A DNA stretch of 64,000 nt from a virus, in IMG/VR virus record IMGVR_UViG_3300026484_000394, positions 1-64,000 of that record; one strand, given 5' to 3'. Of the stretch, positions 1 to 39,614 are shown one piece after another. The position numbers were made by a program, and so were the translations under genes. The stretch's first letter is position 1; every line of letters starts with the position of its first letter. The notes under the pieces were generated by a model. That model was not told where the DNA came from and searched no databases. It saw only the letters and a list, made by a program, of their open reading frames with translations.

Positions 1-258
1 TGTGCCTCTCAGGTCTAAATAATCGCCAACAGACAGGTTTTCAGGCAGTTCCGTGATGGCTGTGTGTTCTAGGTCTAAATAGTCGCCCACAGATAAATTT
101 TCAGGCAGTTTTGTGATAGCTGTGTCCCCTAAATACAAAGAGCCACTCACAGATAAATTCTCAGGCAGTTCCGTGATAGCTGTGTTTTCCAAGTCTAAAG
201 ACCCTTCTATTGCTAATCCTAATTTTGGGTTAAGTTTTCCATCTACTACTGTTTTCAT
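1..258 (-). CDS. Leucine-rich-repeat-like protein, 5' part only
   Basis: The first 86 codons of a minus-strand gene that runs off the left edge. After a short N-terminal leader (MKTVVDGKLNPKLGLAIEGS) it consists of about 20-residue repeats built on LPENLSVGxYLDLxxTAITE, a leucine-rich-repeat pattern that would form a short beta-strand and turn per unit. It is a paralogue of the gene at 546-1433. Bases 1-127 are identical to 876-1002, which points to recent duplication or recombination. The start ATG (256-258) is preceded by the ribosome-binding sequence AAGGAG in a leader shared with the next two minus-strand genes. LRR proteins usually bind other proteins; no target can be named. Confident as a gene, unknown in function. 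Confidence 0.8.
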   Translation of the reverse strand, partial: MKTVVDGKLNPKLGLAIEGSLDLENTAITELPENLSVSGSLYLGDTAITKLPENLSVGDYLDLEHTAITELPENLSVGDYLDLRGT

Positions 259-307
259 ATTTTACTCCTTAAAGTTTTAGGCTATGAAACCTTTGCTGCT
301 CAACAGC
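259..307 (-). promoter_or_regulatory. Conserved leader with small palindrome, copy 1
   Basis: Read on the minus strand, this contains GCTG-TTGAG-CAGC (295-307) followed by a 36 nt block that includes the RBS and leads to the ATG at 258. The block is almost identical to 1434-1470 and 2007-2043, one A shorter. The palindrome arms differ from the other two copies while the loop is conserved. It could be an RNA hairpin in the 5' leader. Alternatively TTGAG is a -35-like box about 18 bp upstream of TAAAAC, with the flanking arms acting as an operator. Confidence 0.7.
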
Positions 308-334
308 TTATTTGCCTTGAATAAAGGCATCTTG

Positions 335-424
335 GATACTCAAATCATATACTACTTTCATCTGCTACTCAATTTTTTCTGAGTAGAATACTCTAGATTA
401 CTTATAGTATCTGATTTGAGTATC
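335..424. repeat. Nested inverted repeat upstream of LRR gene copy 1
   Basis: The 20 bp arms at 335-354 and 405-424 pair at 19 of 20 positions. Inside them a second perfect 7 bp stem (365-371 with 380-386) closes an 8 nt loop. The outer right arm is followed on the + strand by GTTTTT. The element lies between the stop of one LRR gene and the leader of the next, so it may be a terminator, an operator or a small structured RNA. Elsewhere in 259-545 I see a weak hairpin at 313-329 (TGCCTT/AAGGCA) and no gene. Confidence 0.6.
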
Positions 425-486
425 GTTTTTATCTGAGTTAGTTTTTAGTCTTACATAAAGCACAGGTAAAAAAAAGATATATTTTA

Positions 487-507
487 AAAGCCTCTTGATG
501 GGCTTTG
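487..507 (-). terminator. Possible hairpin after LRR gene 2
   Basis: A 6 bp stem (AAAGCC/GGCTTT) lies about 40-60 nt beyond the stop of the 546-1433 gene on the minus strand. An A/T-rich run including eight consecutive T follows further down on that strand. It is plausible as a weak terminator, but the T run is not adjacent to the stem. Positions are approximate. Confidence 0.3.
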
Positions 508-545
508 CTTCGTTTTACGCCCAGCTTGGCGAGAAGTCTAACTTG

Positions 546-1433
546 CTATTTTAACTCCTTTGCTTTGTCAAAGCATTCTCTAACCTTATTGATATAATCT
601 TCTGGGCTTGAATACTTCTTTTTAATACGAAATATTGCTTCTTCTTTAGTACCTCTAAAACATCCAATATGAATTATTGTTTTGTCTTTTAGGTCTAAGT
701 ATATAGCCCTATTATTGGAGCCACAATCATATACGACAGGGTAGTTTACGATGGCTGTGCCTTCCAGATACAGAAAGCCACCCACAGACAAGTTGTCAGG
801 TAATGATGTGATGGCTGTATCTCTTAGGTCTAAATAGTCACCCACAGACAAGCTTTCGGGTAGTTCTGTGATGGCTGTGCCTCTCAGGTCTAAATAATCG
901 CCAACAGACAGGTTTTCAGGCAGTTCCGTGATGGCTGTGTGTTCTAGGTCTAAATAGTCGCCCACAGATAAATTTTCAGGCAGTTTTGTGATAGCTGTGT
1001 CCACTAAATACAAAGAGCCCCCTACAGACAAGTTCTCAGGCAGTTCCGTGATAGCTGTACATCCTAAATTTAAAGAGCCTTCCACAGACAGGTTTTCAGG
1101 CAGTTCTGTGATGGCTGCACCTCCTAAATTTAAACAGCCACACACAGACAGACTTTCAGGCAGTTCCGTGATGGCTGTGCCTCTCAGGTCTAAATAATCG
1201 CCAACAGACAGGTTTTCAGGCAGTTCCGTGATGGCTGTGTGTTCTAGGTCTAAATAGTCGCCCACAGACAGGTTTTCAGGCAGTTCTGTGATGGCTGTGT
1301 TTTCTAAGTCTAAATAGCCTCCAATAGATAGGTTTTTAGGCAATTCTGTGATGGCTGTGTTTTCCAAGTCTAAAGACCCTTCTATTGCTAATCCTAATTT
1401 TGGGTTAAGTTTTCCATTTATAACTTTTTTCAT
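546..1433 (-). CDS. Leucine-rich-repeat-like protein, 295 aa
   Basis: After an N-terminal leader nearly identical to that of the neighbouring paralogue, about eleven 20-residue repeats run from residue 14 to about 235. Each follows LPxxLSVxxxLxLxxTAITE. A non-repeat C-terminal cap of about 60 residues is rich in Lys and Glu and predicted helical. No signal peptide or membrane segment is visible, so the protein is probably cytoplasmic in the infected cell. The start at 1433 follows AAGGAG in the shared leader. Such repeat proteins occur in phages and bacteria without a fixed role. The minus-strand position away from the virion genes suggests an early or accessory, host-interacting gene (inference). 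Confidence 0.85.
   Translation of the reverse strand: MKKVINGKLNPKLGLAIEGSLDLENTAITELPKNLSIGGYLDLENTAITELPENLSVGDYLDLEHTAITELPENLSVGDYLDLRGTAITELPESLSVCGCLNLGGAAITELPENLSVEGSLNLGCTAITELPENLSVGGSLYLVDTAITKLPENLSVGDYLDLEHTAITELPENLSVGDYLDLRGTAITELPESLSVGDYLDLRDTAITSLPDNLSVGGFLYLEGTAIVNYPVVYDCGSNNRAIYLDLKDKTIIHIGCFRGTKEEAIFRIKKKYSSPEDYINKVRECFDKAKELK
741..1400 (-). repeat. 60 bp tandem repeats encoding LRR units
   Basis: About eleven copies of a 60 bp unit, one per 20-residue leucine-rich repeat. Several neighbouring units are nearly identical at the base level. The block at 876-1002 is repeated exactly at 1-127, so unequal crossing-over between or within the two genes could change the repeat number. 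Confidence 0.8.
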
Positions 1434-1483
1434 AATTTACTCCTTAAAAGTTTTAGGCTATGAAACCTTTGTCGCTCAACGAC
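1434..1483 (-). promoter_or_regulatory. Conserved leader with small palindrome, copy 2
   Basis: On the minus strand, GTCG-TTGAG-CGAC (1471-1483), then the 37 nt conserved block with RBS leading to the ATG at 1433. Arm sequences differ from copies 1 and 3 but remain fully complementary. Spacing to the start codon is the same as in copy 3. Confidence 0.75.
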
Positions 1484-1508
1484 TTGTTTGAGTCTTTCGA
1501 CCTCCTAA

Positions 1509-1577
1509 TTGTCTAAAAACAAAATACAAAAATATTCTCTTTTTAGACAAGATGCACAAGAAATAAATCTTGTGCAT
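1509..1577. repeat. Two consecutive perfect inverted repeats after the 140 aa gene
   Basis: A 9 bp stem (1552-1560 with 1569-1577, 8 nt loop) begins seven bases past the stop of the 140 aa minus-strand gene. A perfect 11 bp stem (1509-1519 with 1540-1550, 20 nt loop) follows. Read on the minus strand the second has T-rich sequence in and before its right arm. Together they could act as a terminator between two minus-strand genes. The 11 bp repeat also sits about 76 nt before the next start codon, as in the other two minus-strand leaders. Confidence 0.6.
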
Positions 1578-1583
1578 TATCTG

Positions 1584-2006
1584 CTAGTAGTGTTTTTTTT
1601 GAAAAGCTTTTGTTAGCTTTTCAGTTTTTGGTACTGTTGATTTAATTCCGTAAACAAGAGAGCAGATGATTGGAGTGTATAGCTCTAAAATGTCCCCCAT
1701 TAGTTTATAATAGTCTCCTGTAAAACTTTCAGACATTTCTAGTGCTATTTCCATACGTGCACCTTTTTTAGACAGCTGGTAAAAGAGTTGCCCCGTAATC
1801 GAGCCACTTTTAATTGGCAACGTGTCCGACTTAGTTCCACCAAGTGCTAATTTTATTTTGTCTAAAAAACTGATTTTTGATACATTTAACATTTTGCCAT
1901 TTGCAGCACCAAAGATTTCATTTATATTTTCAACAGCTGTATCTTGATATGTTGCAACTGATTTTAGTTCTGCTGCTGTAACAACTATAGTAGTTTGTAA
2001 TTTCAT
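1584..2006 (-). CDS. Hypothetical protein, 140 aa
   Basis: A 140-residue protein with no recognised domain. It begins MKLQTTIVVTAAEL, has a mixed alpha/beta composition and a basic Lys-rich end (TEKLTKAFQKKHY). There is no signal peptide; residues 108-120 (LELYTPIICSLVYG) are mildly hydrophobic but too short for a clear membrane span. It shares the conserved leader and palindrome with the two LRR genes downstream on the same strand, so the three probably respond to the same signal. The start at 2006 is supported by AAGGAG in that leader. Function unknown; accessory or early expression is inferred from strand and position. Confidence 0.7.
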   Translation of the reverse strand: MKLQTTIVVTAAELKSVATYQDTAVENINEIFGAANGKMLNVSKISFLDKIKLALGGTKSDTLPIKSGSITGQLFYQLSKKGARMEIALEMSESFTGDYYKLMGDILELYTPIICSLVYGIKSTVPKTEKLTKAFQKKHY

Positions 2007-2057
2007 AATTTACTCCTTAAAAGTTTTAGGCTATGAAACCTTTGCTAATCAATAGCA
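2007..2057 (-). promoter_or_regulatory. Conserved leader with small palindrome, copy 3
   Basis: On the minus strand, TGCTA-TTGAT-TAGCA (2043-2057), then the same 37 nt block as copy 2 to the ATG at 2006. The arms are again different and again complementary. Confidence 0.75.
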
Positions 2058-2088
2058 TTGTTGATCTCTTTTTACTTAAAGACACCTC

Positions 2089-2133
2089 TTACCCAAAGCA
2101 CAACACATATATAATATGTTCTGCTTAGGGTAA
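2089..2133. repeat. Long imperfect hairpin in the divergent intergenic region
   Basis: Arms 2089-2100 and 2122-2133 pair at 11 of 12 positions (TTACCCAAAGCA against TGCTTAGGGTAA). The intervening bases contain a perfect ACATAT/ATATGT stem around ATA, so the whole segment could form one nearly continuous hairpin. It lies 83 nt upstream of the minus-strand ATG at 2006, close to the 76-77 nt seen for inverted repeats upstream of the two LRR genes. No minus-strand gene lies to its right in the window, so a terminator role for that strand is unlikely; an operator or bidirectional control element is possible. Confidence 0.5.
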
Positions 2134-2199
2134 ACATAAGATATATTCTCCTACATATATATATACCCTGTTTTCTCTAAAAAGTCCCACCCAGAAATG

Positions 2200-2572: not shown

Positions 2573-3295
2573 GTGAGTAAGATACAAATATTACTTCGGG
2601 GATTACTTTCGTTGTTGTCGACTAAAAAAGTCAGTCATCAAAAAGAATTCGCCATGGTAAAAAAAGATGTCCCCACAAGTGCTATCCCAAAAATAAAAGT
2701 AGCATTAATTGTTGGGCACAGTCGAAAAAAGCAAGGAGCTGAAGGGTCAGCAGGAGAGTCTGAGTTTATGTTCTATAAAAATTTAGCTCCTGAGATTGTA
2801 AGTAGTTTTCATCAGAACCCAAGCCTACAAGGAAAGGTCCAAGTAAAAGTCTTTTTCAGGGATGAGACTGCGGGCTATGTTGGAGCAATGCATATTCTTC
2901 ACAAAGATATAGATACGTGGGGAGCTGACTTAAGTATATCGTTGCATTTCAATGCTGCACTGGACCCTTCTATAAATGGACACGAAGTCTTATACTGCAA
3001 TAATAGTTCGAGAGGGCACAAATATGCAAACTCCCTATGTAAAATTTTGCATGCAAAAATAGGTACGCAAAACAGAGGTCCACTAGCTAGAACGAAACAG
3101 AATAGAGGAGGCCAGTTCCTTTGCCTTGGAAAATCTGCATGTATTCTAATAGAGCCTTTTTTTGCAGCACACCAATTGGACTATATGCCAGGACATAGAA
3201 ACAGAGAACTACTTATAGCTTCTCTTTCTGAACTGGTACTTGAAGCTTGGGAAGAAGAAAAGGTTCCTAAACAACAGACTGAAGGAGAAGAGTAA
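2573..3295 (+). CDS. N-acetylmuramoyl-L-alanine amidase (endolysin candidate)
   Basis: An Amidase_3-type zinc enzyme that would cleave the bond between N-acetylmuramic acid and L-alanine in peptidoglycan. Visible zinc and catalytic residues are His in IVGHS (about residue 52 from the GTG), Glu in GESEF, His in SLHFNA, and Glu in LIEPFF near the end. I chose GTG at 2573, preceded by AAAGGAG with 5 nt spacing, over an in-frame upstream start at 2498 that would overlap the HNH gene and lacks an RBS. The N-terminus (KIQILLRGLLSLLS) is a short amphipathic or hydrophobic stretch that might associate with membrane, but it is not a clear signal peptide. It is the likely lysis enzyme working with the holin and spanins at 16795-17646, or a virion lysin. 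Confidence 0.85.
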   Translation: MSKIQILLRGLLSLLSTKKVSHQKEFAMVKKDVPTSAIPKIKVALIVGHSRKKQGAEGSAGESEFMFYKNLAPEIVSSFHQNPSLQGKVQVKVFFRDETAGYVGAMHILHKDIDTWGADLSISLHFNAALDPSINGHEVLYCNNSSRGHKYANSLCKILHAKIGTQNRGPLARTKQNRGGQFLCLGKSACILIEPFFAAHQLDYMPGHRNRELLIASLSELVLEAWEEEKVPKQQTEGEE

Positions 3296-5481
3296 TGTCT
3301 GACTATATCGCAAATGGAGGGAAAGCACTCACTATTACCCCAGAGAATATTGAGAAAGTTACTTCTATACAGGCTAACGATGGAACTATAAATATTGTCA
3401 ATAGCTCCGATTCCGGGATGGTAGTGGAATTTGAAAAAAGTGCAGTAATATCAATTAAGTCATTCGGGCAAGTTAATGTTCGGGGAAAGATGATTACTAT
3501 AGGGAGTTCTGACGGAACAATAGAACAGGTGATTCCTCATTGGCAATCTGTTCATCCGATAAATGTAATTTGGGTTGAAGATGCTCCTGAAACGAATAGA
3601 TTTTCTCCGTGGTTCGGTATTAATCCTCAAGGTTCAGACTTAGCTGGATTTGAAGCATTTAGCACAGAGATAGAAGGGAGAGTTTTTAAATGGCAAGATG
3701 GAGATATCATTTTCTCAGATAGCGAAAGCTACTCTCAAATACCTGCAGATGGCTGTAAGATACAAGTTCCAAACATTATCTTTTCCACTGAAGACCCGTT
3801 TAGTTCAACTAAATATGCACGGCTAAGAAATGATGAAGGTGGAAGCCTAAATATATCTGGAGTCAGCTTTTCTGACTTTGGTGGTACATTCAGAGGATTG
3901 TCTCATTTGGATATTAGAGACACTGGTTTTTACGGTTCTACTTATATTCAGTACGGTCTTAAATTGAAACTATCTAATGTTTTCTCTGGAATGAGAGATA
4001 GTCTATCTAGTGGATTGAATATCAACTATTCATCCGACATCCTAGTTTCTGATGTAGGAGGTATTTCTTTTAAGAATAACGGACTCTCTATTACTCATTC
4101 TAAAGAAATAAATGGTTATCGACTGCTTGGAATAACAGTAAAAAGAGATTCTGCTAATGACAGTCCTGTTAGCCTAAAGACTGTACAGAACCTAAAAGTG
4201 ATAGGCATAGTTGCTTCTGGTGGGCAGTTCAGATTAGAGAATACGGCAAAAGTAAGAGTTTATGAAATTAGACTTTCTGACCAAGTTAGTGGAGAAGAGA
4301 ATAGTTCAACAGCTACCTCTAATATAGTAATTGACAATGCATCAGAGACATCTCTTCATCATGTGTCTGTCGTGAAAGAAGGTGGAGCTAAACTATCCTA
4401 CGCTTCTATCCGAAATTCATCTGACATAGATATCACTAAGATGAGCGTGAGAAGTTCATATGCGAACAATGTTATGACGGGCGATGTGTCTAGTAACCTG
4501 AGAATTTCAGAATTGTATTATGACGGCTTCAGTGGAGCAACTCCATTCTTTTTCCCTAGAAAAAACAACGGTCTTTTGTTGCAATCTGTAAGCTCAAAGG
4601 TTACACCTGATATAAAAATTGAAGCAATCAATACTGTCATTAAAGGTGTGCAGGCAAACCAAATCATTACTGATATTGATGGAATAGCTAACTGTAGCTT
4701 TGCTCAGATTTACACAGGAGAGAGCGAAGGAAAACTAGTATCAATAATGACAAAAGGGAGTGCTTCTTTCTCTAACATTTTAGGAAGACTAAAATGGTCC
4801 AATGATGCTAAGATGTATTTTGATCAAGAAGGTGATTCTATTGAGATAGAGATGCCATTTAATGTTAAAGGAGTTACTCTTCAGGATATAGAACCTGAAA
4901 TAGACGGAAGTAATATAGATGCTTTAGCGATAGATTATAGCCTCCATTCAGAAGAAGGATGGTCTTCTTTTAAAGGCTTTCATTCAGAACATTTACAAAA
5001 TGAAGTTATTGATACCAATAAGGGGTTCAGACTTAAGTTCAGAATTACGGCAGGAAGTATAGAAAAGAGTACTTGCATATCTACTATAACGCTTAATACC
5101 TACGATAAGAGGACGGTATATCCACTAGATACTGTTTCTGGTATTCTATCTTTTGAGGAAAATGCAGTTATTGATGACCATGCTAAATATTTCTTATTCT
5201 TCAAACAGGGCTATGGAACGCCCAATGCAGTGTTGGTTAAGGATGCTAATGGGCTGGATATTCAAGGACATGTCGATGGTCGCTCTGAGATTAGATTTGA
5301 ATATGATTTTGCAAATGATAATACTAATGGAAGAGAGCCAGGCTTTGATGTAGAAATGGTTTTAGTCCTTGCTGGGAGTAGCATAGCTTCTAGTCAAACT
5401 GTATCTCAAGAATTCAGAGATGGAATAATTAATATGTTTAGAATGAGAGCCTCTCGTGATAATGCATACAAAGGAGAATAG
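3295..5481 (+). CDS. Large beta-rich protein, putative tailspike or appendage
   Basis: 728 residues; the ATG overlaps the amidase stop (TAATG). No named domain is recognised with certainty. From about residue 180 to 470 the sequence is a series of short beta-strand-like stretches rich in Ser, Asn, Gly and Val with little helix, resembling right-handed beta-helix appendage proteins. The rest is also beta-rich (for example KFRITAGSIEK and HAKYFLFFKQGYG). The position at the head of a run of appendage genes supports a tail fibre or spike role. Receptor binding or polysaccharide binding is inference; no catalytic motif is seen. Confidence 0.55.
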   Translation: MSDYIANGGKALTITPENIEKVTSIQANDGTINIVNSSDSGMVVEFEKSAVISIKSFGQVNVRGKMITIGSSDGTIEQVIPHWQSVHPINVIWVEDAPETNRFSPWFGINPQGSDLAGFEAFSTEIEGRVFKWQDGDIIFSDSESYSQIPADGCKIQVPNIIFSTEDPFSSTKYARLRNDEGGSLNISGVSFSDFGGTFRGLSHLDIRDTGFYGSTYIQYGLKLKLSNVFSGMRDSLSSGLNINYSSDILVSDVGGISFKNNGLSITHSKEINGYRLLGITVKRDSANDSPVSLKTVQNLKVIGIVASGGQFRLENTAKVRVYEIRLSDQVSGEENSSTATSNIVIDNASETSLHHVSVVKEGGAKLSYASIRNSSDIDITKMSVRSSYANNVMTGDVSSNLRISELYYDGFSGATPFFFPRKNNGLLLQSVSSKVTPDIKIEAINTVIKGVQANQIITDIDGIANCSFAQIYTGESEGKLVSIMTKGSASFSNILGRLKWSNDAKMYFDQEGDSIEIEMPFNVKGVTLQDIEPEIDGSNIDALAIDYSLHSEEGWSSFKGFHSEHLQNEVIDTNKGFRLKFRITAGSIEKSTCISTITLNTYDKRTVYPLDTVSGILSFEENAVIDDHAKYFLFFKQGYGTPNAVLVKDANGLDIQGHVDGRSEIRFEYDFANDNTNGREPGFDVEMVLVLAGSSIASSQTVSQEFRDGIINMFRMRASRDNAYKGE

Positions 5482-8582: not shown

Positions 8583-10493
8583 ATGGCAAACTATGTAACT
8601 AATATAAAGAACCCAGAAATAATAGCATCTCTTCCAGATATCAGCATTCTTGCTGATCTCTTTGATGAAGGGCTGACAACAGATGGATTAAAAGGAAGAC
8701 TTAATTCTGTTTCATTTAGAAAAAAGCTTCAAACGATCTTGTCTTTTAAAATGTCTGATACAGTAAGAGAGCTTCTCTCGTCACAGCTCAGGACTGGATA
8801 CATACAACTAAAAAGAGATGAGGGCTGTAAAGTTGAGATCATAGATAAAGCAATCTTTGTTGACGATAAACTCATCACATACAGTATAGATTCTTTTGCG
8901 GACGGAATTTTTGCAGATGACAGTTTCTCGGCATTATTTTTTACTCCAGAAGTAATAGATGTGGTACTTTCATCAAAAGACAATTCTTTTATAGAATCTG
9001 TGCTTAAGGTTGGTAACTTTTGGAACAGAGCCGTTGAAGTAGAGAACCTTATTGCTCATTTGGAAGAAAACCATTTAGAGGTGATTACTCCATATATCGA
9101 AACTTTAGAGGTGCCGTATGTTAAATATGTGTGTTATAAGGCGGGTCTTGAAGTGCCGAGATATAGAGATATATCATTTATCATAGAAGACAGTCATGCA
9201 ATGGATGCTATTGCTTTAGTTCCAGCAGCAGTTGCAGTAGAAAGAGCTTCTCAATATGGAATTAGTGCAAGGATATTGTATTCTTTTGGCAAACAGTCTC
9301 TTGATGAGGTTTCAGATTCAGAAGATGTTTTAAGCCTAATTAAGAAAGACTCAGCCCTAAGAAGTATTGTTGTTGACTTTAATGCTGTTCAAGCTCTTAA
9401 AGAAGGGAGCATTATAGAAAGATATATTTTAAATAATGACATTCACTTTGGACATATTGTATCTGAAAAATTAAAGATTGAAACTAGCATTAAAATGTCA
9501 AACTTATTTTTTGATGAGACATATGCAGAAGAACTGAAATTATTTATTGGTGACGATCGACTGGTTGAAATGTTATTTAGAAGTAATCTTTATCCAACTT
9601 TTGCTTCTGTATTCTTTGAGGTATTTAGCGGTCTTAATATAAGTGGACAGCAGTTTTCAATGATGGTAGACGACACTAATGGAACCTTATCTATGAGTTA
9701 TGCTACTCGTGAATTCAATGCTAGACAGTTGCAAGTTTCTTTAGATTCTTTTTCTGAAACAAAAGCCAGTTCTATTGTAGATGTTGAGACAGAAAAAAGA
9801 GTTTTCTTTGTTCCGTATACTTTCTCGGACAAGACGGTACTCGCTACTCAGACATCTCACAAAGTAGAACTAACCAATCCAAATAACTATAACTTATATG
9901 GAGAATTTGCAGAGGATAGATTCAATACTCTTATCGGGTCAGATGGTCATATATTTGGAATTCAAAGTGATGGAAAAGTAGTTTCATCTAGATTTTCAAT
10001 CTCTTTAAATCTGTCTTCAGAAAACATTTTAAGTATTTCAGTTCTTCCTCAAAATGTATTCATTATCACAGAGGAGACAATTCATGCATTTGGAAACTTT
10101 GGTGAAGACAAGGAAGATATTATTCAGAATGTTATTGTGAATAAAGACGATATTTTAGGACTGACATATTTCCGTGGAGCAGTAATTGCCTTAAAAAATG
10201 ACCACACTCTTGTGACAGTTACAAAAGATGATTTAGTTCCTTTTCTTGAAGATGTGAAAGTGTTAGACCTAATGGTTATTCGAGATAAGCTTCTACTTTT
10301 AAAAGAAGATGGTGTTCTAATTGAATGGCAAGATGAAGAAACTGTTGTGGAAATTGCTAGTGATATAACAGCAATTACATATTCACAAATGGGCATCGTA
10401 GCTACTATTGTAGAAGAAGAAAGAGCAATCTTTAACTACGAAGACAGTTGGTTGGTTTATGATTTTAATGTAAATAATTTATTCGGAAACTAA
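8583..10493 (+). CDS. Large virion-type protein with propeller-like C-terminus, 636 aa
   Basis: The N-terminal about 420 residues are mixed alpha/beta with no recognised family. The C-terminal about 200 residues have repeated short strands of RCC1/beta-propeller character, for example GSDGHIFGIQSDGKVVSS, then VFIITEETIHAFGNFGED, VIALKNDHTLVTVTKDD and LLLLKEDGVLIEWQDE. Such motifs place a Gly/Asp turn before each strand. AAGGAAAACAA precedes the ATG. A second RCC1-like protein is encoded at 19662-21443, so the phage seems to use this fold twice. Role presumed: appendage or host-surface contact. Moderate certainty for the propeller, low for function. Confidence 0.5.
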   Translation: MANYVTNIKNPEIIASLPDISILADLFDEGLTTDGLKGRLNSVSFRKKLQTILSFKMSDTVRELLSSQLRTGYIQLKRDEGCKVEIIDKAIFVDDKLITYSIDSFADGIFADDSFSALFFTPEVIDVVLSSKDNSFIESVLKVGNFWNRAVEVENLIAHLEENHLEVITPYIETLEVPYVKYVCYKAGLEVPRYRDISFIIEDSHAMDAIALVPAAVAVERASQYGISARILYSFGKQSLDEVSDSEDVLSLIKKDSALRSIVVDFNAVQALKEGSIIERYILNNDIHFGHIVSEKLKIETSIKMSNLFFDETYAEELKLFIGDDRLVEMLFRSNLYPTFASVFFEVFSGLNISGQQFSMMVDDTNGTLSMSYATREFNARQLQVSLDSFSETKASSIVDVETEKRVFFVPYTFSDKTVLATQTSHKVELTNPNNYNLYGEFAEDRFNTLIGSDGHIFGIQSDGKVVSSRFSISLNLSSENILSISVLPQNVFIITEETIHAFGNFGEDKEDIIQNVIVNKDDILGLTYFRGAVIALKNDHTLVTVTKDDLVPFLEDVKVLDLMVIRDKLLLLKEDGVLIEWQDEETVVEIASDITAITYSQMGIVATIVEEERAIFNYEDSWLVYDFNVNNLFGN

Positions 10494-11751: not shown

Positions 11752-13069
11752 GTTTGACGATTTCTCAATAGAGAGTGCTGAGATTGGCTATAGTTCTTGC
11801 TTTGGAGGAGTATGTCCTATGATAAAGACAGCTTCTGATAATCTCCTTGCCGGAATTACACAGAAAAAAAACCACGCCTATCTTCATGTTATAGCAATGG
11901 GGGCTGGGGATTATTATGGAGAGAATCGCAATGGGGATTTCTTCTACGAAAAAGATTTAATTACCTATTATAAGACATTTGAAACAGCAGGTGTTTTTGT
12001 TCAGCACGATAATAAAAATCCGGAAAAAAGCCTAGGTGATGTTGCTCTAGCTCACTATAATCATGATATGCATCGAGTTGAGTTAGTGATAGAAGTGTCT
12101 AAACAGAAAGCTCCTGAGTATTATAATAGAATAGAAAGAGGCGAGCGTTTAAAAGTTAGTATGGGAGTTAAGGTACCTTCGGAACACTGTTCATACTGTG
12201 GTGCAGTAACAAAAGGTTCTTTAGCAAACAGATGTTCTCACCTAACATACGAAATGCATCAACAAAAAGAAAATGGTCAAGTTGTGTATGCTATCAATGT
12301 TCCACCAATGAATTTTTTTGATATTTCATTTGTTTCGAAACCTGCAGACGACCAAGGACATGCTCTTTATCAAAAGGTAGCTTCGGAGCATAAAGAAAAT
12401 AGCAATCTTCTTCAGGATAAAATTGCTACGCTAATTAAACATATGCCTGTGCTTAACACTATTCCAAATGCCGTGACAGACGAAGAGCTAAATGATTTTA
12501 AGCAGCTTGTTCCAAGTGGGTTGAGAGGGCGATTAATTTCGTCAAAAAGAATTATACTAAAGCCTTCAGAGATTATGTTTCTTGGGACAGATATGCCAGC
12601 TCATGATTTAGATCATTGTAGAGAGCATTGTGATAACGAAGACTTTATTCACACTTTAATGGAAAAGCTAATTAGCAATGGGAAAAGAAAGTGTTTCGCA
12701 GATATGCTAAAAACAGCAGAAGAAGATGATTACGATAATCCAATATTGAAAAAGCTCGTTACAAGAACATATCTTGTCAAGCAAGCTGCCAAAGAGGACT
12801 TTTATGGAAATAAGCAGATCTTAAGAGCACCGAATAGGAATAAAGAAAATAGACATCTTCGTTATGCACAGTTTCAAGTTAATATGTTTGACGGAAAAAG
12901 AGTTACTGTTCCGAGCTCTCCGACAAGATTAGCAGACAGTATCTTTCCTGTCGGGCACAAGCAAATCCCTGCATACTATACTGATCTTGTTGATGACGGA
13001 TATGCATCTAATATCGTAGGGATTCTGCCTGATGGAGCAGAGCAATTAGTATATGCGAAGGAACGATAA
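11744..13069 (+). CDS. Prohead (capsid maturation) protease
   Basis: Resembles phage prohead serine proteases of the herpes-assemblin-like fold. These cleave scaffold, core and capsid N-termini during head maturation. The likely catalytic His is H88 in FVQHDNKNPEKS and the likely nucleophile is S139 in LKVSMGVKV, in the usual order and surroundings (GVFVxH, then xVSMG). An unusual insertion at 149-166 carries C-x2-C-x11-C-x-H and could bind zinc. The remaining about 200 C-terminal residues are family-specific. The protein contains several copies of the K-x-A-S/E motif (IKTAS near residue 27, YQKVAS near 210, LVKQAA and MLKTAE further on) that recurs in other virion proteins here. The start overlaps the previous gene. 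Confidence 0.75.
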   Translation: MIKFDDFSIESAEIGYSSCFGGVCPMIKTASDNLLAGITQKKNHAYLHVIAMGAGDYYGENRNGDFFYEKDLITYYKTFETAGVFVQHDNKNPEKSLGDVALAHYNHDMHRVELVIEVSKQKAPEYYNRIERGERLKVSMGVKVPSEHCSYCGAVTKGSLANRCSHLTYEMHQQKENGQVVYAINVPPMNFFDISFVSKPADDQGHALYQKVASEHKENSNLLQDKIATLIKHMPVLNTIPNAVTDEELNDFKQLVPSGLRGRLISSKRIILKPSEIMFLGTDMPAHDLDHCREHCDNEDFIHTLMEKLISNGKRKCFADMLKTAEEDDYDNPILKKLVTRTYLVKQAAKEDFYGNKQILRAPNRNKENRHLRYAQFQVNMFDGKRVTVPSSPTRLADSIFPVGHKQIPAYYTDLVDDGYASNIVGILPDGAEQLVYAKER

Positions 13070-15017: not shown

Positions 15018-16763
15018 ATGGACACTCTACAGGAACTCAATAAGCTTATGCCACAGGATATAAAGTTTAAGCAAAGTGATTTGCCTTTAACTAAGCCTAT
15101 TATAAAAGCTAAGCTGACTCGTTTTGCTAAAAAGTACCCATCGCTATATGCCAAAAATATTCACCAAATTGGAAATCTAGGAGAGGAATTAGCTTATCTC
15201 TCCGGACACAATATGGGGCTCGCTGACTTGAGACTAGGTAACCAAAAAAGTATTGATAAGAAGTTAGATGGAGAAGAGCTTAAAATGAGAGGAATGTCTA
15301 CTCTTCAAAAAAAGAAACATCTTCTCAATGCATTTAACCTAGCTCAGACTGAAGTGATGAAAAATACTGACAATAATCTTGTGTCTCAGGCCATATCTAA
15401 GGCTAGGGGAAACCCAGCTTCAGTAACAAGAACGGCTGGGGCGGTTGTCTATGCTGTAGATATGAACTCAGAGCCGTACCCATTTATGATAAAAAATTCG
15501 CTGGCCAAAGGACTTAGAGCACACGAGCAATATGCTTCTGGTGGGCAAGCCCGTTTTGCTGCCGTACAATCTGCTGTTTCTACATCTGAGCCAGGAGCTA
15601 TGGGAAAAGTGTTAATAGCTAACACGGAGCATCTTAAGATTGCTGAGAAAGATTGTGGTACCAGAAACGGAATTCCTCTGTCTCTGGATGGTACAGATGC
15701 AATAGATAGATATGAAGCAGGCACCAATAAGTTGATTACTCCACAATATTTGTCACAACTTAAAAAGAGGGGTAAAAAATCTATTATTGCTCGTTCACCT
15801 AGAACCTGTCAATCTACAAAAGGCATCTGTTCTATGTGTTTTGGCTTAAATGAAAAAGGGCATCTTCATTCTTCTGGGCATAATATCGGAATAGAAGCAT
15901 CAGAATCTGTTTCTGAAAAAGCTGTTCAGTTGGTATTAAATGCAAAGCACAATGTGTCTGGGAAAGCAGGGGGTTCAAGAATACCTACTGGATACCAAGC
16001 TGTAAAAACAGTTTTAAACTCTACGGAGACGTTTCCAGGTAAGGCAACGGTATCAACATTAAATGGGAGGGTGGATAAGATTACACCTCTTGCTACAGGT
16101 GGACATAATATAGAAATCTCAGGTCAAAACCATTTTGTGTCTCACGATGTCTCTCCAAAAGTTAAAATTGGCACTCAAGTAGATATGGGGGACATATTGT
16201 CTACTGGCATTGCTTCGACTAAAGACATGATGCAATACCGAGGTGTACAAGAGGCTAGAGCATACCTTTCTCATCAATTAGATAAAGCACACAATGGCTC
16301 TATTGACAACAGAAACTTCGAAGTAATTTCAAGAGGATATTTAGACTTAGTAAAGCCAAGAGGAATGCCAGGAACAACCAACTTGCATTCGTACGATACT
16401 TATGTACCAAGCTTATCTGGTACTCATGAATTAGTAATGAAGACATCAGATAAACAGCTGGTTAAAAAGCATCTAGCAGAACCTATATTGAATTACAGTC
16501 CAGGGAAACCTATTACAAAAGCTGTACAAAACAATCTCATTGACAGAGGTATCAAGTCGGTATTAGTGTCTCATACTGCGATGCCATACACCCCTGTGTT
16601 TAAAACATATGAACAGAAACCTCTATTTAATTCATCTCCGTGGCAAAGCATTAACTATCGTGGTATCAAAAAAGGAATTAAAGATGACCTTTTGATGGGG
16701 GAAAAAGAGGATGTAAGTAAGCTCAAATCAGATAGAGCTAAATTTACTCTTGGTATACTATGA
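15018..16763 (+). CDS. RNA polymerase beta' C-terminal-half homologue, 581 aa
   Basis: Residues about 120-330 are colinear with bacterial RpoC. KARGNPASVTRTAG matches the F-loop segment GARGSAAQIRQLAG. Residues about 160-215 match the bridge-helix region and end in KDCGT where RpoC has DDCGT. All four Cys of the second beta' zinc site are kept: C213, then C264-x6-C271-x2-C274, the same spacing as in E. coli. The trigger-loop region follows (GHNIGIEASESV, QLVLNAKHN); the His equivalent to H936 is kept while R933 is Asn. The catalytic NADFDGD segment is absent because the protein begins downstream of it. Such C-halves exist as separate subunits in phiKZ-like phage polymerases. Otherwise this may be a repurposed virion protein. 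The start has RBS AAAAGGA. Confidence 0.8.
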   Translation: MDTLQELNKLMPQDIKFKQSDLPLTKPIIKAKLTRFAKKYPSLYAKNIHQIGNLGEELAYLSGHNMGLADLRLGNQKSIDKKLDGEELKMRGMSTLQKKKHLLNAFNLAQTEVMKNTDNNLVSQAISKARGNPASVTRTAGAVVYAVDMNSEPYPFMIKNSLAKGLRAHEQYASGGQARFAAVQSAVSTSEPGAMGKVLIANTEHLKIAEKDCGTRNGIPLSLDGTDAIDRYEAGTNKLITPQYLSQLKKRGKKSIIARSPRTCQSTKGICSMCFGLNEKGHLHSSGHNIGIEASESVSEKAVQLVLNAKHNVSGKAGGSRIPTGYQAVKTVLNSTETFPGKATVSTLNGRVDKITPLATGGHNIEISGQNHFVSHDVSPKVKIGTQVDMGDILSTGIASTKDMMQYRGVQEARAYLSHQLDKAHNGSIDNRNFEVISRGYLDLVKPRGMPGTTNLHSYDTYVPSLSGTHELVMKTSDKQLVKKHLAEPILNYSPGKPITKAVQNNLIDRGIKSVLVSHTAMPYTPVFKTYEQKPLFNSSPWQSINYRGIKKGIKDDLLMGEKEDVSKLKSDRAKFTLGIL

Positions 16764-37951: not shown

Positions 37952-38218
37952 ATGTTAGAAGCATACAAAGAAGTGATTATTACAAGAAGACTTGGGAACA
38001 GTAAAGAAAGTGAAATGGGGGCAGTAAGAACATCCTCTGAGAAAGCAGAATCCCTTAAAGTGGAAGTGCTAAGTTCAAATGTGCATATGGTAAATGCTGG
38101 AGACAAACTTTTGATTGCAAAATACTCCGGAACTGCAGTTACTTATAAGGGCGAGGATGTTGTGTTTATACGAGAAGAGGATATCTTAGCGTCAATTATA
38201 GGAAGAGATGATGCATAG
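37952..38218 (+). CDS. groES: Phage GroES-like co-chaperonin, 88 aa
   Basis: 88 residues colinear with bacterial GroES (about 97). The first strand VIITRRLG matches VIVKR. A short mobile-loop region with GAV corresponds to GGIVL. VEVLSSN matches GEVLAVG, VNAGDKLLIAKYSG matches VKVGDIVIFNDGYG, and the end VVFIREEDILASI matches VLIMSESDILAIV. The start is ATG 37952 with AAGGAG at 37941-37946. It overlaps the GroEL-like gene by 11 bp. It would form the heptameric lid of the chaperonin. The loop sequence is changed, so it may fit the phage ring, the host ring, or both. Confidence 0.85.
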   Translation: MLEAYKEVIITRRLGNSKESEMGAVRTSSEKAESLKVEVLSSNVHMVNAGDKLLIAKYSGTAVTYKGEDVVFIREEDILASIIGRDDA

Positions 38219-39614
38219 AGACCTGATAACTTCTGTATTTCAAACGGCCGCGAGAACAGTTGGCTCAACATATGGTCCAAATGGTAGTTTCGCAATTTTA
38301 ACGGATGGGAAAAACTCTGTAGTAACCAAGGATGGCGTGAGTGTTCTTCGTCATATGAAATATTCAAGCAACGTGGAGCAAGGTATATTTGAAATTATCA
38401 AGGAAGCCTCTCTTCGGACTCTTACTGAGGTAGGTGACGGGACAACAACAACTATTCTCTTGGCTGAAAATATTTACTCGCTATTACATCCTGTGGACTT
38501 TCACAAAAAAGAAGATATCCTAGCTAAAGCAATTGCTCAGCTTTCTGATGTGAAGAAAAAGGCTTCCCAAGAGGACTTATTCACAGTGGCAATGACTGCA
38601 ACTGCAGGCGACGAAATTTTAGCAAGAATAGTTGTGGATGCTGTAATAACATCTGCTGAAAAAGGATATTCTAGTGTCACTGCCGAAGCTAATTCTGAGA
38701 GTAATACTTCTATTCTTGAAGAAGAAAGACTTGGGTTTAAGGGTACTTTAGTGGACAATGCTTTTTATGATAAGTCAGGCGACTTTTTAGAATGGGCAGA
38801 TGCAGTTACCATTGTATCTTTGTCTGAAATAGCAGGAGAAGAGAATGTTATTTCGCTTGTAGAAAAATGCCTAAGAGAGGGGATTGAGAAAATTATGATC
38901 CTGGCACCAAGCTTCGCACTCACTGCACTCTCTGCAATGGCAGTGAATAATCATCTGGTTCGATTTGCTCCTATTGTAATCTCAGCAGGAGACGCCGCTA
39001 AAACAAAGCTTGCCCTAGAGACATTGGCTATCTCTTTAGAAGCTACAGCGATAGGTATAGAAACTGGAGTGGAGTTAAGAGACGCTACACAAACACATTT
39101 TGCTCAGATAAAATCTCTTTCTTTTCGCAATTCACATATATCTTGTGAAGTGAAATCAACTGATGGTGGAGAGGTTAGGAGAGAGTCTGCTCGAATACTT
39201 GCTTTAGATTGTCTAGCAAAGGCTTCTGATGACGAAGAGCGAGATATGTATAGAGTAATACTTGGGATCTTAAATAGAGGAAGTATCACTATTCAAGTAG
39301 GAGCAGCTAGTTTAGGTGCTGCTATTGAAAGAAAAGATAGAACAGACGATTGTGTTAATGCAGTAGAGCTAGCCTTATCTGGAGGTGTTGTAGCTGGGGC
39401 AGGAAGAGCTTACGAGGCAGCTCTAGCTAATCTTGGTTACGACACTCCCTTTGGAGAAGCATCAAGTGCATTAATTCTTCCAATAACGAAGAGCACTCGC
39501 CCTTTAGATCCATATGCTGTTGCTGAAACTGCTCTTACTCAAGCAATAGAGCTTGCCTTTCTAATGAAACGGTCAGCAGTAGTTGTATTAAATAATAAAA
39601 ATAAGGAATCTTAA
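38208..39614 (+). CDS. groEL: Phage GroEL-like chaperonin, 468 aa
   Basis: Group I chaperonin pattern: YGPNGSFAIL near residue 20, KDGVSVLRHM near 42, and GDGTTTT with the ATPase Asp at D77 (GroEL D87). The C-terminal equatorial block VGAASLGAAIERKDRTDD, with D381 at the place of the catalytic D398, is followed by LSGGVVAGAGRAYEA. The protein is about 80 residues shorter than GroEL, mainly in the apical domain, and lacks the GGM-rich tail. Expected to fold phage proteins with ATP in a ring with the GroES-like partner just upstream. Phage GroELs (for example in EL and OBP) are known; coupling to its own GroES in one operon is less usual. Confidence 0.9.
   Translation: MMHRDLITSVFQTAARTVGSTYGPNGSFAILTDGKNSVVTKDGVSVLRHMKYSSNVEQGIFEIIKEASLRTLTEVGDGTTTTILLAENIYSLLHPVDFHKKEDILAKAIAQLSDVKKKASQEDLFTVAMTATAGDEILARIVVDAVITSAEKGYSSVTAEANSESNTSILEEERLGFKGTLVDNAFYDKSGDFLEWADAVTIVSLSEIAGEENVISLVEKCLREGIEKIMILAPSFALTALSAMAVNNHLVRFAPIVISAGDAAKTKLALETLAISLEATAIGIETGVELRDATQTHFAQIKSLSFRNSHISCEVKSTDGGEVRRESARILALDCLAKASDDEERDMYRVILGILNRGSITIQVGAASLGAAIERKDRTDDCVNAVELALSGGVVAGAGRAYEAALANLGYDTPFGEASSALILPITKSTRPLDPYAVAETALTQAIELAFLMKRSAVVVLNNKNKES

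Follow-up and report, generated by a model that had tools for sequence, protein, structure and literature searches.

A hairpin leader with a fixed loop and compensated stems in unrelated phages: a candidate cis-acting RNA element

At the left end of the window, i.e. the whole stretch of 64,000 nt analysed here (positions 1-64000 of the 97,197-bp IMG/VR contig IMGVR_UViG_3300026484_000394, labelled G000), three successive minus-strand genes are each preceded by a leader of common design, which contains a small hairpin (P1). The genes and the three P1 copies (c1, c2 and c3) lie as follows:

1584-2006, minus strand: open reading frame (ORF) behind c1, 140 aa, no family found
546-1433, minus strand: ORF behind c2, 295 aa, leucine-rich-repeat (LRR) protein (LRR_14, E 1.4e-10)
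1-258, minus strand: ORF behind c3, LRR protein, truncated at the contig end
2044-2056, minus strand: P1, copy c1, GCTA TTGAT TAGC
1471-1483, minus strand: P1, copy c2, GTCG TTGAG CGAC
295-307, minus strand: P1, copy c3, GCTG TTGAG CAGC

The c1 ORF has no relation to the two LRR ORFs, and that behind c3 is incomplete since the window starts at the contig end. G000 ends in repeats on both sides, namely the LRR ORF on the left (window 1-258 and 546-1433) and PSKTR repeats on the right (96992-97183); it was probably broken there and, because its ends fall in repeats, further leader copies may be missing from it. Elsewhere the contig carries a GroEL-like chaperonin gene (window 38208-39614; PHROG match, E 2.6e-51), a single ORF joining beta-like and beta'-like multisubunit RNA polymerase domains (G000 80963-85243, minus strand) and a second RNA polymerase ORF with Rpb1 domain 5 (window 15018-16763, plus strand).

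The leader follows the plan [N4 TTGAK N4'] AAAGGTTTCATAGCCTAAAACTTT(T)AAGGAGTAAA(TT/AT)ATG: the five-base loop of P1 is fixed as TTGAK in all copies, and it is the invariant AAGGTTTCATAGCCTAAAA, the Shine-Dalgarno sequence and the ATG that come next. The original prediction had described three minus-strand leaders whose arms differ yet pair around a fixed loop, the c1 palindrome spanning 2043-2057, with the next 36-37 nt nearly invariant, and the sequence agrees on each point; a fifth T-A pair stretches the c1 hairpin to 2057-2043, and the 37 nt after P1 are the same in c1 and c2, while in c3 a single T is deleted and a single base is swapped. By chance, the 35-nt block would be expected 0.00 times in the window. 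Two further helices are predicted between P1 and the start codon:

2028-2041, minus strand: P2, copy c1, invariant AGGUU-UCAU-AGCCU
1455-1468, minus strand: P2, copy c2, predicted from energy
279-292, minus strand: P2, copy c3, predicted from energy
2012-2024, minus strand: P3, copy c1, weak predicted pairing of ACUUU with GGAGU over the Shine-Dalgarno AAGGAG
1439-1451, minus strand: P3 with the Shine-Dalgarno, copy c2, predicted
264-275, minus strand: P3 with the Shine-Dalgarno, copy c3, predicted

Pattern scans of IMG/VR found the leader once in G001 (IMGVR_UViG_3300026512_000003, 165 kb) and once in G002 (IMGVR_UViG_3300026521_000428, 35 kb, 26.6% GC), which brings the total to five copies in three contigs (three in G000). 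No copy beyond c1-c3 occurs in the rest of the 97,197-bp contig, and the 2.9 million contigs of IMG/VR, screened with the patterns tried, gave no other. Loose IMG/VR patterns gave coincidental matches, dropped once their context was read, and the single match in prokaryote genome contigs is unrelated; blastn of the leader against GenBank phages returned chance-level matches only. None of the 4227 Rfam models attains its family's gathering score in the window or, at a relaxed threshold, in the five leader-bearing loci. A methyltransferase considered as a clue to the host matched many genera. G001 is distant kin of G000: dozens of their proteins correspond, with identities of roughly 20-80%. Between G002 and G000 no protein matches at E<1e-4, and the leader is therefore shared beyond genome ancestry. 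The otherwise unrelated G001 and G002 do have in common a metallo-beta-lactamase-fold protein (43%; L025, a locus of G002, 2647-3456 and L033 8207-8947) that weakly matches the anti-Pycsar family Apyc1. A further contig, G003 (IMGVR_UViG_3300003981_000006), contains split homologues of the G000 multisubunit RNA polymerase (L056), as well as a leader that resembles the motif (GCAG AGCAA CTGC ... AAGGAGTAAATTATG).

The four distinct arm pairs known (GCTG/CAGC, GCTA/TAGC, GTCG/CGAC and GACG/CGTC) each pair at 4/4 positions, i.e. 16/16 cells, counted on the 13-nt hairpins alone because MAFFT had misplaced one gap in G002. Three of the four P1 pairs have changed on both sides. The covariation score was matched by 3/500 column shuffles and by no slid register, and sliding the partner lowers pairing to 12-56% (slides keeping all four pairs). 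A covariance model (R1), built from c1, c2, c3 and G001 with G002 left out, recovers the G002 copy at 59.7 bits (E 1.5e-9), all P1 pairs being formed by an arm pair new to the model; against the G003 leader it reaches an E of 0.18 only. As a natural control, a loose pattern without arm requirement was used, of which 80 matches were located in IMG/VR loci: the arms paired 4/4 in two, which are the two true leaders, and at three positions or fewer in the other 78. The search of the remaining contig and of relatives and the building of a covariation model, both originally proposed, have added two contigs and strengthened the case for selection on structure; copies with unpaired arms, or loss of the pattern in relatives, were looked for and not found, both further copies pairing perfectly.

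The identity of c1 and c2 over 37 nt, and the shuffling promoter-terminator cassettes (PeSLs) of T4-like phages (cited in PMC4503421), would suit a leader that is simply a recombination cassette of recent spread with incidental arm differences. Linking the four arm pairs takes, however, at least four base-pair replacements, every one of them compensated, which makes mere copying very improbable.

RNAfold forms P1 and then P2 (AGGUU-UCAU-AGCCU) in 5/5 copies, followed by the weak helix between ACUUU (UAUUC in G002) and the Shine-Dalgarno GGAGU. P2 is invariant in all copies and therefore has no covariation support, its prediction being based solely on energy. A pseudoknot of the P1 loop with an upstream CTCAA/ATCAA/TTCAA, discernible by eye in c1-c3, was rejected, being absent from G001 and G002. 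In seven leaders, counting the two of G003, the Shine-Dalgarno has a predicted accessibility of 0.25-0.65, whereas 231 other starts have a median of 0.67; 7/7 leaders fall under that median and 6/7 in the lowest quarter, and the predicted occlusion is a weak effect. The leaders as a whole fold more stably than shuffles (z -3.6, -4.3, -5.5, -6.0 and -2.9 for the five). It is established for ompA-type leaders that 5' hairpins can protect mRNA, and such strongly folded 5' regions might act as a passive stabiliser or processing site, in which tandem hairpins block or direct ribonucleases with no specific ligand. Such a role needs, however, neither a fixed TTGAK loop nor an invariant 19-nt tail across unrelated phages, and is judged rather unlikely.

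The original prediction had left two readings side by side, an RNA hairpin and a -35 box within gene-specific operator arms, of which the former is favoured here and the latter finds no support. A sigma-70-like promoter with TTGA as its -35 element would have the expected spacing (TTGA, 17-18 nt, TAAAA(C/T)), and in a consensus scan the site in G002 reaches 9/12. The scan list, however, lacks c1-c3 at that register, and the region has no more sigma-70-like matches than shuffles do (7 vs 7.4); instead of hexamers conserved over a spacer of 16-18 nt, it is the spacer AAAGGTTTCATAGCC that is invariant and conserved above the putative hexamers, its length varying by one between copies. Nor do arms that differ between copies suit the operator of a common repressor, and this reading is regarded as having very little chance of being correct.

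P1 contains no G-U pair in any copy, and its arms alone can therefore not tell RNA from DNA. Additional hairpins lie upstream of each copy in the window:

2088-2134, minus strand: long imperfect hairpin upstream of c1, with sense-strand G-U pairs
1509-1577, minus strand: two long hairpins upstream of c2 (1552-1577 and 1509-1550)
313-424, minus strand: hairpins upstream of c3, one long (335-424) and one short (313-329)

The upstream hairpins of c1, c2, G001 and G002 contain 3-10 sense-strand G-U pairs (5-10 in c1, G001 and G002), and their antisense energy is weaker: in kcal/mol, sense versus antisense, -34.6 vs -19.8 for c1, -28.4 vs -14.9 for G001 and -42.1 vs -23.8 for G002. For c2, the energy favours the sense strand (-35.5 vs -26.5 kcal/mol) and the z-score does not; a sense-strand preference is absent in c3 and in the two G003 leaders (G003a and G003b). 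Sense-strand G-U hairpins are as expected of transcribed RNA, most clearly in c1, G001 and G002. Moreover, about 165 nt upstream of the G002 P1 lies a 44-nt AT-rich box (AATTTACTTTAAAATAACTAT...GTATAGATAT.TTATAA) that G002 and G003 share at 89%, its copies being located as follows:

L025 (G002) 10399-10442: 44-nt box
L039 12278 and 12384: 44-nt box
G003 22001: 44-nt box

In both contigs its best matches lie between genes, in every case ahead of a plus-strand gene, and other near matches are at shuffle level. The box is probably a promoter, in which case the G002 P1, lying downstream of it, would be within the transcript.

The best rival at the DNA level is a promoter of the type found in phage N4, in which the palindrome is extruded, a phage RNA polymerase reads its loop and transcription starts a few bases downstream. 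Early N4 promoters are likewise free in their non-conserved stem bases provided that the hairpin is kept (PMC4496689), P1 lacks G-U pairs, and G000 itself codes for parts of a multisubunit RNA polymerase (Rpb2 domain 6, E 3e-31, and Rpb1 domains); indeed, since both G000 and G003 encode parts of such a polymerase, unusual promoters are possible in them. Against this, the loop has five bases in all copies and three in N4, the A-run 3' of the hairpin on the sense strand has the opposite polarity, and the conservation extends through 19 nt and the Shine-Dalgarno up to the ATG. The contigs read contain no polymerase of about 3500 aa, their largest ORFs having 1426 aa (G000), 2391 aa (G002) and 1105 aa (G003), with the reservation that the contigs may be incomplete. 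In addition, G002 places a promoter-like box upstream of P1, and 165 kb of G001 hold one site. An N4-type promoter thus appears improbable.

All five P1 copies are on the sense strand, 36-39 nt ahead of an ATG with AAGGAG; this orientation and fixed distance, together with the G-U hairpins upstream and the promoter-like box of G002, favour the RNA hairpin over the promoter/operator. The transcription of the leader as RNA may hence be considered well supported, its position suggests that it acts on translation, and the fixed loop and tail, set against drifting stems, suggest that a trans-acting factor reads it. The motif would then be a cis-acting RNA leader, probably a factor-binding site, controlling translation beside a weakly occluded Shine-Dalgarno, an explanation to which I give a little better than an even chance. 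According to this explanation, the leader would be co-transcribed with its gene; P1, a 4-bp stem with a fixed UUGAK loop, would need only to fold, and for that reason its stem could drift through compensated changes, and the loop, the invariant P2 and the UAAAA linker would hold the sequence that something reads. The weak downstream pairing would hide part of the Shine-Dalgarno, and a factor encoded by phage or host, probably an RNA-binding protein, might bind P1-P2 beside the ribosome-binding site and thereby set the translation (or decay) of the leader genes jointly.

A second structured motif, M2, occurs near the leaders, mostly from a few to about 15 nt past a stop codon, in G000, G001, G002 and G003; its design is C-N-N-C, a loop RAGCTG, G-N-N-G and then TAAAAYGRAGC.

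507-540, minus strand: M2, CGCC AAGCTG GGCG TAAAACGAAGC, hairpin at 518-531, directly behind the stop codon of the 546-1433 ORF
L032 2568-2600 and 3487-3522: M2
L025 11108-11140 and 11378-11410: M2
L039 14065-14097: M2

The second G002 copy falls within a short predicted ORF, and an M2 string in L037, apparently within coding sequence, was set aside as chance sharing. Three arm pairs of M2 are known, with two pairs changed on both sides (4/500 shuffles). On the sense strand, the motif-bearing blocks of G001, G002 and G003 fold with mean z-scores of -2.5 to -3.4, the genome-wide values being -0.5 to -0.8 (mononucleotide shuffles). When coding sequences were compared with codon permutations that preserve the protein, ranks 1-3 among 369 ORFs of four contigs went to genes full of perfect hairpins, two in the block of G002 (L025 10617-11105 and 11896-12441; z about -6.6 and -11.7) and one in that of G001 (L032 2808-3197; z about -5.3). 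In G000 the leaders are strongly folded and the coding sequences behind them, by the same permutation, are not. Two unrelated phages further share a leader (M3; L032 about 2340-2384, L025 about 11855-11898) made of a hairpin with differing stems (CCCG/CGGG and CTCC/GGAG) followed by AAGAAAGGTNNTCATG, and another string (M4), AGTAATCTAGAYGATGTNACTCTCAGA, lies within long hairpins upstream of leaders in G001 and G003 (L038 540-566; L036 2674-2700 and 3636-3662), a partial version being found near window 400 on the minus strand.

That the leaders head blocks rich in strong hairpins, with nine terminator-like sites in G002 where 1.3 are expected, might suggest a put- or nut-like element, whose hairpin RNA binds RNA polymerase, directly or via a factor, for antitermination or another modification that lets it read through the hairpins farther downstream. 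A constant spacing to the Shine-Dalgarno and ATG and the recurrence of the leader ahead of three genes in a row suit a translation element better, a boxA-like element is not seen by eye, and such a function is unlikely. More tentatively, and with considerable doubt, the 5' leader motif (M1), M2, the other structured leaders and the hairpin-packed coding sequences might form one RNA-structure programme of a probably early gene block, exchanged between unrelated phages, some with their own multisubunit RNA polymerase, and either read by a common RNA-binding factor or evading an RNA-cleaving defence.

The leader is thus a testable RNA element common to unrelated uncultured phages, whose natural compensatory variants separate the part that matters for shape from the part that is read, and it may be a hitherto undescribed switch or binding site in the RNA by the translation start. 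The genes that it marks, most of them of no recognisable function, are probably regulated together, and from it one is led to blocks in which the messages fold far beyond protein requirements. Coding RNA folded beyond protein needs is known from RNA viruses; I know of no description of it for DNA phage genes.

Structured leaders beside a Shine-Dalgarno are already known in phages; the motif itself, its occurrence in unrelated phages and its combination with a like-designed 3' motif have no counterpart in the libraries searched. A PeSL combines a strong sigma-70-like promoter with a terminator stem-loop. These cassettes of T4-like phages are short regulatory stem-loop units between small variable genes, implicated in gene shuffling (cited in PMC4503421). 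The leader is likewise a short stem-loop unit between small variable genes, yet it has no promoter hexamers, the scan being at chance, and its hairpin stands just before the Shine-Dalgarno with no T run after it. With the hairpin promoters of the N4 virion RNA polymerase it shares a fixed loop, a stem of free letters that pair, a fixed flank and a place near genes that are here probably early; the N4 promoters have a 3-base loop, a hairpin from -17 to -5 and four As then the +1 C on the template strand, and serve a giant single-subunit polymerase that starts just downstream of the hairpin (PMC4496689), whereas the polymerase found here is of the multisubunit type. Lambdoid nut boxB and HK022 put are also small fixed-loop hairpins in early phage leaders, from which the present one differs in lacking a boxA by eye, in its constant start-codon spacing and in having a single copy for each gene. 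With the cis-regulatory leaders and riboswitches of Rfam it has the conserved structured 5' leader in common, with no family match here. Phage translational operators (the T4 RegA, gp32 and gp43 sites and RNA-phage coat operators), none of which to my knowledge has the sequence of this leader, resemble it in having structured or specific RNA at the ribosome-binding site, with a fixed loop and a freer stem. Structured RNA next to the Shine-Dalgarno is likewise predicted here, with weak occlusion, but in this case the copies precede several unrelated genes, in unrelated phages.
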